From assembly GCF_900103535.1 (NCBI RefSeq), contig NZ_FNHQ01000017.1, forward strand, positions 1 through 64,000: a DNA stretch of 64,000 nucleotides. The letters run 5' to 3'. Under the pieces are notes generated by a model that had not been told where the DNA came from, did no database searches, and saw only the letters and a program-made list of their open reading frames with translations. Shown piece after piece: positions 22,348 to 59,274 of this stretch. This stretch comes from Megasphaera paucivorans. Lineage in GTDB: Bacteria > Bacillota > Negativicutes > Veillonellales > Megasphaeraceae. Position 1 is the first letter of the stretch; every line of letters begins with the position of its first letter. The translations under genes and the position numbers were made by a program.

Positions 22348-22488
22348 AAAAAAAGGCTCTTTCACAAATGAAAGAGCCGAATCTACGTGCTATTCTCTCA
22401 TCTGTCAGATAATATCTGCAGGAATTGGCACCGCTTTTGCGGTTGCCGGATTTCATCGGGCCTGTCCCTCCATCGCTCTTGATAAGAG
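22348..22488 (-). promoter_or_regulatory. SAM-I (S-box) riboswitch with terminator
   Basis: On the minus strand: the P1 strands CTCTTATC (22488-22481) and GATGAGAG (22402-22395), the S-box cores GAGGGACAGGCCCGATGAAA and CCGGCAACC, and GGTGCCAATTCC. It ends in a terminator with 10-base arms (22355-22364 and 22369-22378) followed by a T run. High SAM should stop transcription before the metH-metF operon. Confidence 0.97.
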
Positions 22489-54422: not shown

Positions 54423-54600
54423 AAATCATGACACCTCCTAAATAGGAACTATATATATTATATTAACACACTTTAGTAAATAAGAAAACGAATTAGTTAT
54501 TTAATTCACATATTGAAAGGCGAGTATTTTATATTGATGATATATCAAAAATTGTAAAAAGTTGTATAATAGACTATATAGAAAATACGGAGGAATCAAA

Positions 54601-55776
54601 ATGTCAGTTCGTTGGATCATGCATGTTGATATGGATGCATTTTATGCATCTGTTGAGCAGCGAGATAATCCTGCATTACGGGGACTTCCTGTTATTATTG
54701 GTGGTTTAATGGATCGTGGTGTTGTTGCCACTGCTTCATATGAGGCACGTGCTTTTGGCGTTCATTCGGCAATGAGTATGAAACAAGCGCGCCGATTGTG
54801 TCCCAACGGTGTATTTTTGCCAGTGCGCATGTCTTATTATCGAAAAGTATCCCACCAGATACGCCTTATTATGTCGCATTATTCACCATTTATTGAACCA
54901 TTATCTTTAGATGAAGCATTTTTGGATGTGTCTGGTATGGAACGGCAATACCCAAAGATAAAAGATATAGGTATTGCTATTAAAAATGATATTCATAAGA
55001 ACATAGGTCTTATTGCTTCTGCGGGGATTGCTCCGAATAAATTCTTGGCAAAATTAGCATCTGATTTGCGAAAACCAGATGGTCTAATGTGGATTCCATA
55101 TGGAAAAGAACAGGAAATATTGGCACCCTTGCCAGTAAACCGGCTCTGGGGAGTGGGGCGAGTAACTGCAGCGGCATTAGAATCTGCTGGGATTTGTACT
55201 ATTGGTGATGTTGCTGCAGTGGGAGTAAGTGTGTTGACTGCTGTTGCCGGAAGCCAGGCAAAACGCCTTTACGAGTTATCCTGCGGTATAGATAAACGAC
55301 CATTGCAAGTAAGCCGCCGGCCTCAGTCAGTTGGCAATGAACATACCTATGAACATGATATTTTTACTTTTGAGGAAATCGACGAGCAGTTTCGAATATT
55401 GGCCAATGAAGTTTCATGGCGCTTGCGCCGACATCATCTGATGGGACGAACTATTACAATAAAAATTAGATTGGCCTCATTTCATACGATAACTCGTTCA
55501 CTTACGCTTCAGAATAATGGAACTTGTTCAGAGGAGCAATTATATTTTTCTGCAAAAAAATTGTATAATAAAGCGGGGAGAGTAAAACCGATACGGTTGT
55601 TAGGATTGACAGTAAGTCAATTGCAGCCGCTTCGAATTCAGGGAGATCTTTTTTCTGAAGATGAGGAAATAAAAGGTAAAGTAGTTGAAGCGATTGATAA
55701 CTTACAACAGCGATTTGGCCGCAACGCTATTATGGAAGGGTTTTTATGGGAATTATCTCATGATAAAAATAAATAA
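54601..55776 (+). CDS. dinB: DNA polymerase IV
   Basis: A 391-residue Y-family translesion polymerase. The catalytic acids are in HVDMDAFYASVE and SLDEAFLDV, followed by the HhH region (LWGVGRVTAAALES) and the little-finger domain. The end does not show a clear beta-clamp-binding peptide beyond QGDLFSED, which fits the QxxLF type. CGGAGG sets ATG 54601. Confidence 0.95.
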   Translation: MSVRWIMHVDMDAFYASVEQRDNPALRGLPVIIGGLMDRGVVATASYEARAFGVHSAMSMKQARRLCPNGVFLPVRMSYYRKVSHQIRLIMSHYSPFIEPLSLDEAFLDVSGMERQYPKIKDIGIAIKNDIHKNIGLIASAGIAPNKFLAKLASDLRKPDGLMWIPYGKEQEILAPLPVNRLWGVGRVTAAALESAGICTIGDVAAVGVSVLTAVAGSQAKRLYELSCGIDKRPLQVSRRPQSVGNEHTYEHDIFTFEEIDEQFRILANEVSWRLRRHHLMGRTITIKIRLASFHTITRSLTLQNNGTCSEEQLYFSAKKLYNKAGRVKPIRLLGLTVSQLQPLRIQGDLFSEDEEIKGKVVEAIDNLQQRFGRNAIMEGFLWELSHDKNK

Positions 55777-55824: not shown

Positions 55825-56118
55825 ATGTCTATTTTCAAGGTAATTGCTCATACGGATTCAAATAATAATGGTTATATTCAATATGATACGGAGACAAAAG
55901 AGTTGACAATATGTCTTCATGATTTGGAAAAAGAAAAACAAGTTCGAGAATATTTGACAAAAGAAAAAGCGATGCATCGTTATGTGGGGCTGTCAACTTT
56001 TGAAACGATAAGCGCGGCACCTGTTTCCAGCTTAGAAAATTTAAAATTAGCGTTAGGATACATATGGTTGGACTTAGATGTCCACATTGATTGGAGCCGT
56101 CCAACAGAAGAAATCTAA
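55825..56118 (+). CDS. Small conserved-looking protein of unknown function
   Basis: A 97-residue protein without signal or membrane segment. It starts 48 bases after dinB with a GAGGAG ribosome site. The family is not recognised. The C-terminal half (LKLALGYIWLDLDVHIDWSRP) is unusually rich in aromatic and acidic residues. It borders the DnaA-box cluster, so any link to replication start would be worth testing, but nothing in its sequence shows one. Confidence 0.65.
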   Translation: MSIFKVIAHTDSNNNGYIQYDTETKELTICLHDLEKEKQVREYLTKEKAMHRYVGLSTFETISAAPVSSLENLKLALGYIWLDLDVHIDWSRPTEEI

Positions 56119-56580
56119 TAGAAAATAAGGTTATCCACAATTTGTTCACAATTTATCACCATGGATGTACCATTGTGTGCGTAAACGGAAAAAAATATAC
56201 GATAATAGTCGAATACGCCGAATGTATAGCAAAAATGGAAACAATAAAATGTGGATAACTAAAAAAAACAATGCATCCTAAGTACATAATTATATAGAAA
56301 ATAAGCACAACCATGCGGATAAGTATGATTATTTTATGTTTATCGGTTAAAGTGGATATATTGTGGATTGCTGTGGATAAATAATGGATATCGGGGTGTA
56401 TGATCTTGGGAAAATAAAAAAAATGATGATACGTACGCAATTTTTTACAAAAACATAGGCATCTTCTATGAAAATGTATAAGTTATCCACAATTTTTATA
56501 AAAATTTCCCTAGTAAAATACATACGTCTATTTGTTGTAATATATAAATATATAGTATAATGTATGGTGTAATAATAAAA
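56119..56580. other. oriC: DnaA-box cluster, candidate oriC
   Basis: Four perfect DnaA boxes TTATCCACA: plus strand at 56131-56139 and 56483-56491, minus strand at 56250-56258 and 56372-56380. The pattern is two inner boxes on one strand and two outer ones on the other, 111-122 bases apart. Near matches: TTGTTCACA (56142), the minus-strand copies TTATCCGCA (56314-56322) and CAATCCACA (56362-56370). Very AT-rich DNA at 56490-56580 could be the unwinding element. No gene lies in it and dnaA is not adjacent. Confidence 0.7.
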
Positions 56581-56620
56581 AAGTCTCCGAAGAATATGCT
56601 GTTTGGAGACTTTATTTTTA
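56580..56620 (+). terminator. Hairpin upstream of a LysR gene
   Basis: AAAGTCTCC (56580-56588) and GGAGACTTT (56605-56613) followed by ATTTTTA. A TATAAT (about 56556) just before it could start a short leader transcript, making this an attenuator or a barrier next to the origin-like region. Confidence 0.5.
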
Positions 56621-56645: not shown

Positions 56646-57533
56646 ATGATGAATTTGCCAAATATACAACAATTAGAAAATTTTATTATTTACGGAAAAG
56701 TCCGTAATTTTACTGCCGCGGCAAAAGAAGCTAATATAACACAATCTGCCTTTAGTTTCCAAATGAAAAAATTGGAAGAACTGATAGGAGTACAGCTTAT
56801 TGCACGATCAAATAAGGGCAGTAAGTTAACGAAAGAAGGAGAATTGTTTCTGACGGAAATACAAATTATTTTGCAGGATCTTGAAGAGTGTATATGTGAT
56901 ATACAAGCATTGAGTGGCCAGACACTTTCTCTTTCTGTGGGGACACTTATGTCATTAGGTGACGTGCTTATGAATCGTCATTTAGCATATTTTCAGAAAC
57001 ATCATCCGGAAATGTCTATTAGTGTGTATAATTTAGAGGCACGGGAGCTTCTAAAACAGCTTGAAGAAGATAAACTTGACATTATATCGACTTTTTGCCT
57101 TCCGCAAATGAATATTAATAACTATGAACAGACTTTTTTTTGTACAGAAAAAATGGTATATTACGCTCCGAATATGCATGTAGAAAATCAACCGGTTACT
57201 GCCGATTATATTGCGAGACATCCATTAGCGCAGTATTCGTCATATTATTTGATGAATACTAATATTGAAAGATATTTTTCGGATATAGATTGTCATCCTG
57301 TTGTACAGGCATGGTTTTCTACACCGTATGCGATTATGCAGTATTGTCAGGAAAATCTTACAGGGGCGTTGTTATCTGAACGATTTCTTATGGCGATGGG
57401 AGTTTGTAAAGGATACTATGAAGTAGAACCAAAGTTTGATATGTCCTGTTATTTGTTATACAAGAAAAAAAATCCAAAATATAAAATGATGAAAATATTT
57501 ATTGATTATATTCGAAAATTATATCAAAGCTAA
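56646..57533 (+). CDS. LysR-family transcriptional regulator
   Basis: A 295-residue regulator. Winged helix FTAAAKEANITQSAFSFQMKKLEELIGVQLIAR, then an effector domain. GGGGA at 56635-56639 serves ATG 56646 or ATG 56649. It precedes an MFS carrier on the same strand by about 120 bases and probably controls it. Confidence 0.9.
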   Translation: MMNLPNIQQLENFIIYGKVRNFTAAAKEANITQSAFSFQMKKLEELIGVQLIARSNKGSKLTKEGELFLTEIQIILQDLEECICDIQALSGQTLSLSVGTLMSLGDVLMNRHLAYFQKHHPEMSISVYNLEARELLKQLEEDKLDIISTFCLPQMNINNYEQTFFCTEKMVYYAPNMHVENQPVTADYIARHPLAQYSSYYLMNTNIERYFSDIDCHPVVQAWFSTPYAIMQYCQENLTGALLSERFLMAMGVCKGYYEVEPKFDMSCYLLYKKKNPKYKMMKIFIDYIRKLYQS

Positions 57534-59197: not shown

Positions 59198-59274
59198 GCG
59201 CCCATAGCTCAGCTGGATAGAGCAGCAGTTTCCTAAACTGCGTGTCGGATGTTCGAGTCATCTTGGGCGCACCA
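59198..59274 (+). tRNA. tRNA-Arg (anticodon CCU)
   Basis: A 77-base cloverleaf: acceptor GCGCCCA pairs with TGGGCGC. Anticodon stem GCAGT/ACTGC with loop TTCCTAA gives anticodon CCU (59232-59234), reading AGG. The T arm contains GTTCGAGTC and the 3' ACCA is encoded. Confidence 0.96.

Follow-up and report, generated by a model that had tools for sequence, protein, structure and literature searches.

The stretch of Megasphaera paucivorans DNA analysed here (positions 1 to 64,000 of contig NZ_FNHQ01000017.1, hereafter the window) carries an intergenic array of DnaA boxes at 56131..56491, an arrangement to which no strand is assigned. Its conserved upstream neighbour is a gene encoding a protein of 97 residues (55825..56118, + strand), which is itself preceded by dinB, the gene for DNA polymerase IV (54562..55776, +). 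On the other side stands the gene of a LysR-type regulator (56646..57533, +), and a stem-loop with a T-rich tail (inverted repeat at 56582..56613, +), absent from the terminator-scan listing, forms a possible terminator between this gene and the array.

Four boxes of the array are perfect copies of TTATCCACA, at 56131..56139 (+), 56250..56258 (-), 56372..56380 (-) and 56483..56491 (+), which confirms the order +,-,-,+ and the spacings of 119, 122 and 111 bp reported in the initial annotation. Weaker boxes stand between them. The first perfect box begins 11 bp ahead of core box A (56142..56150, +), which is degenerate here (TTGTTCACA, two mismatches) but departs from the perfect box at a single base in the sister genome G001, and core box B (56176..56184, -), degenerate as well (TTACGCACA, two mismatches), follows 34 bp past box A, as in relatives. 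Core box C is the perfect box at 56250, 74 bp past box B. It is followed by a one-mismatch box, TTATCCGCA (56314..56322, -), which overlaps a second motif described below, and by a degenerate box with two mismatches (56351..56359, -) lying, as in relatives, 21 bp ahead of the next box; the latter, the perfect box at 56372, is 122 bp past core box C, a distance of 121-125 bp in most of the family. The weaker boxes at 56142, 56176, 56314 and 56351 occupy conserved places. One-mismatch boxes as such are not enriched across the window (24 found versus 22 expected).

These four are the only perfect TTATCCACA boxes in the 64-kb window, and the array is the densest group among the 42 perfect boxes of the 2.91-Mb genome. 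Simulated windows with the same dinucleotide content contained a mean of 0.95 perfect boxes and at most 2 per 370 bp, and at the observed box rate about 1e-6 four-box groups of such density are expected per genome. A chance origin of the array is excluded. An Rfam search of the array gave no noncoding RNA match.

Homologous loci of the family were collected via the 97-residue gene, and a DnaA-box group was found directly behind it in all 17 family genomes examined; in one of the genomes searched (G015) the gene copy is interrupted by a stop. Complete family arrays have the box order + + - - - - +, and relatives keep core spacings of 11-12, 34-35 and 72-78 bp, followed in most family members by about 121 bp (121-125) between the two central minus boxes. 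The period of about 120 bases proposed at first is thus only a part of the conserved pattern. The neighbouring genes are less constant: family members and most genomes of the Veillonella-like genus g4 have dinB ahead of the 97-residue gene, whereas genera g7, g11 and g13 do not, and the downstream gene may be LysR, a nagA-like amidohydrolase, a brnQ-like transporter or another (apart from LysR, these names were read from the sequences with no family search). Among the neighbours named initially, namely dinB, the small gene and LysR, it is the 97-residue gene to which many lineages tie the element. In genus g4 this gene is kept with no array behind it, and smaller box groups follow it in most g7 and g11 members and in g13.

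A scan with the 97-residue family extended the picture to the class Negativicutes, yielding homologues in genera such as Sporomusa, Anaerospora, Selenomonas and Anaerovibrio. Boxes again lie just behind the gene in the Sporomusa/Anaerospora group and related metagenome-assembled genomes; counted from box A(+) at 0, most of these loci have a weak box at +12, and box B(-) follows at +34, box C(-) at +110/111 and often another box at +135. Because these loci were chosen by protein homology and not by box pattern, the agreement in spacing between Sporomusa and Megasphaera (34-35, then 72-78 bp) was not built into the selection. The shared core reads box A(+), 34-35 bp, box B(-), 72-78 bp, box C(-). 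As a strict DNA pattern, it matches in 55 of 381 class genomes and 17 of 102 genera, with 0 matches for the reversed control. This prevalence is a minimum, as the pattern misses boxes that have diverged. It has no match in the window's own genome; a relaxed pattern matched 7 of 57 chosen genomes, again with 0 for the control. The strict core is usually present at one place per genome, and at one locus (L229 in G142) the element seems to be partly tandem-duplicated, with boxes at 0, 12, 34 and 110, then at 210, 222 and 244.

No dnaA lies within about 1.5 kb of any of the pattern loci that were inspected. In Selenomonas-type genomes the 97-residue gene and the element stand apart, and the neighbours at loci devoid of this gene, named from the sequences with no family search, resemble ppk/tadA (L225), purL and LysR (L234) or glgB and MFS (L239, L242). 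Since the neighbour genes differ between lineages, the element is not the promoter of one gene. We found no earlier description of it in the literature on DnaA control in Veillonella, Megasphaera and Negativicutes, most subscription journals being outside the search.

The array is not next to dnaA, as had been remarked initially: the sole full DnaA gene of the window's genome was located at 12341 of contig C60 and is flanked by perfect boxes upstream (11636, 11738 and 11761) and downstream (13433). Strand asymmetry was inspected in relatives with the array and dnaA on one contig. In five of them (G005, G012, G305, G366 and G135) the GC skew changes sign at dnaA, taking 20-kb blocks on either side, and does not switch at the array or its homologue; the GC skew of G010 is too weak for a verdict, and only the AT skew and the coding strand switch at dnaA there.

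In 11 genomes where a single contig carries both loci, the distance between the element and dnaA amounts to 0.8-11.4% of the genome (for G012, an incomplete assembly, the percentage is based on the main contig only). It lies 148 kb away in G004, where it occupies the other replichore at a similar distance, 192 kb in G005, 165 kb in G010, 106 kb in G012, 18 kb in G055, 77 kb in G305, 168 kb in G366, 106 kb in G365, 305 kb in G142 and 294 kb in G135. In G356, checked after the pattern had been noticed, the distance is 299 kb of 4.78 Mb, or 6.3%. Under uniform placement one locus would fall within 11.4% with a probability of 0.23, and six families taken as independent would do so with a probability of about 1e-4, a figure weakened by their shared ancestry.

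Other box clusters were encountered in relatives. A small-genome member of family f4 has four perfect boxes in 56 bp (L137, G019:978839-978894), 18 kb from dnaA, which is possibly an oriC separated from dnaA. In Veillonella-like genomes, second clusters with boxes recurring about every 21 bp lie about 205-255 kb from dnaA (L132, G048:1833026-1833130; L133, G021:1862704-1863159). These clusters, at 1.833 Mb in G048 and 1.862 Mb in G021, were considered as a moved copy of the element and rejected, the 21-bp recurrence being inside a reading frame; they look like coding-region repeats and are perhaps a coding-region DnaA cluster.

Within the linkers between boxes, a palindrome-like second motif, ATGGCATAATTATGCCAT, recurs about midway in many Megasphaera-type arrays (linkers of L008-L019). 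Comparison with shuffled sequences supports it moderately (129 versus 61-109). The motif, which is specific to these arrays, is absent at dnaA and showed no enrichment in a 1.2-Mb sample of three relatives. The window has a single, weak copy of the ATGGCATAATTATGCCAT type at 56302..56319, with no strand assigned. Weak terminators or degenerate DnaA boxes may account for some of the copies, and we regard the motif as a lead toward a partner protein, not as a finding. As for the 97-residue protein, it belongs to no Pfam or NCBIfam family; AlphaFold gives a confident alpha/beta model (pLDDT 92), for which no fold match was obtained against the PDB. Its tie to the element could be functional or merely a shared position. 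Elsewhere the window contains a SAM riboswitch (RF00162) at 22395-22488 on the minus strand and a tRNA gene, matched by Rfam, at 59198-59271 on the plus strand.

Taken together, we think it rather probable that the array is a stand-alone, cis-acting and origin-proximal site for the sequestration or inactivation of DnaA, analogous to datA and the B. subtilis clusters. The DnaA-titrating cluster that the initial annotation had offered as one of two options is the best fit for an element that is origin-proximal, intergenic, conserved in geometry and independent of neighbour genes; titration itself is what we infer. DnaA probably binds the boxes in a looped or phased complex with a negative effect on initiation. 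The array would bind the initiator DnaA close to oriC and, because it is near the origin, would be duplicated soon after initiation. The doubled, high-affinity and precisely spaced boxes would then sequester DnaA, perhaps also promoting its inactivation, and so keep oriC from firing again too early, either by titration alone or by titration together with stimulation of ATP hydrolysis. Such a doubling soon after initiation, as a sink or as a means of inactivation, was proposed for datA and for the B. subtilis clusters (PMC5010248; PMC4585315; PMC5295017; PMC13220808).

Several points weigh against this reading. Only a draft exists of the window's genome, and the figures on origin proximity come from relatives, in which this proximity could partly reflect conserved regional synteny within families. 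The window's own core boxes A and B are degenerate. Moreover, the pattern search did not find the element in most other families of the class (for example Veillonella proper, family f5 and most f24 genera), where it is dispensable or diverged. The fixed spacing suggests more than passive titration, and the B. subtilis analogy is itself debated, one review denying those clusters any significant part in regulation (PMC5295017).

Perhaps the element is an ancient control element specific to Negativicutes, whose fixed layout assembles a complex changing the state of DnaA in bacteria devoid of Hda and YabA, with the participation of the second motif in Megasphaera and perhaps of the 97-residue protein as a partner; we hold this as a tentative possibility. 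In the window's genome, no Hda was found above the curated cut-off, the best match being DnaA itself, and YabA gave no match, while the B. subtilis control was positive for YabA; this result also speaks for the sink or inactivation site proposed above.

The main rival to a DnaA sink or inactivation site is a role like that of DARS, at which facing boxes would join ADP-DnaA, release ADP and regenerate ATP-DnaA, promoting initiation. The element shares with E. coli DARS1 and DARS2 a three-box core with a facing pair, yet the facing boxes start 14 bp apart in the DARS1 region and 34-35 bp apart here (22 bp from the weak box A2). The chromosomal position differs as well, the element being origin-proximal like datA, whereas the insertion sites near DARS2 and DARS1 have relative genome positions of about 0.22 and 0.33 (PMC5010248). 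We judge a DARS-like role unlikely.

A regulatory region, through which DnaA would control how the 97-residue gene, dinB or the gene downstream is transcribed, agrees with the intergenic location of the array, and certain promoters of other bacteria are under DnaA control. However, the array lies behind the 97-residue gene and not before it, a stem-loop resembling a terminator stands between it and the LysR gene, and the boxes persist while the downstream genes change and the neighbours in other families are unrelated, all of which makes this explanation improbable. Finally, a displaced or second replication origin, in favour of which speak the four strong boxes, the AT-rich DNA and a number of perfect boxes exceeding that upstream of dnaA in the window's genome, has very little left to commend it, the displaced oriC of the initial annotation being rejected on the grounds of a skew that flips at dnaA and not at the locus in the five relatives and of a dnaA on another contig with flanking boxes of its own. 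The array itself is AT-rich, with no AT-rich, unwinding-like flank conserved among relatives.

Little is known about how replication is limited to once per cycle in bacteria devoid of Hda or YabA. A single recognisable origin-proximal DnaA element in several families of Negativicutes, common bacteria of the gut and rumen, offers a concrete target for such studies.

Comparison with known systems places the element as follows. With the bipartite, dnaA-linked oriC of Firmicutes it has in common the clustered TTATCCACA boxes, but the array is not at dnaA and shows neither a skew switch nor a conserved unwinding element. With respect to DARS, the three-box core lacks the DARS spacing: a search for the element geometry in the E. 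coli DARS1 region gave no match, and the DARS2 region gave one match with other spacing (24, 95). E. coli datA resembles the element more closely, as it is intergenic, contains several high-affinity boxes and keeps a fixed relative distance from oriC, a distance conserved here in 11 relatives (0.8-11.4%). Unlike datA, however, the Megasphaera-family arrays have unrelated neighbours and no IHF site between essential DnaA boxes, the IHF consensus WATCAANNNNTTR being present in 0 of 17 arrays, although a diverged site is possible; the datA region, in turn, lacks the A-34-B-76-C geometry. As this geometry is missing from datA, DARS1 and DARS2, we do not assign the element to those families; it would at most work like datA. 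The DnaA-box clusters of B. subtilis, an organism devoid of IHF, are likewise groups of several boxes outside but near oriC (for the element, nearness is taken from relatives), and position near oriC matters: datA and the B. subtilis clusters are near oriC, and their effect is lost on a move to the terminus (PMC5010248). Deletion of the six B. subtilis clusters leads to early initiation (PMC13220808; PMC5295017). B. subtilis has six such clusters, whereas the Negativicutes element usually stands at one place, with a three-box geometry common to several families, and the likeness drawn here is one of functional class and not of homology. Perhaps the solution represented by datA, in which DnaA is bound at a locus whose position close to oriC is roughly fixed, occurs elsewhere among bacteria with a geometry of its own.
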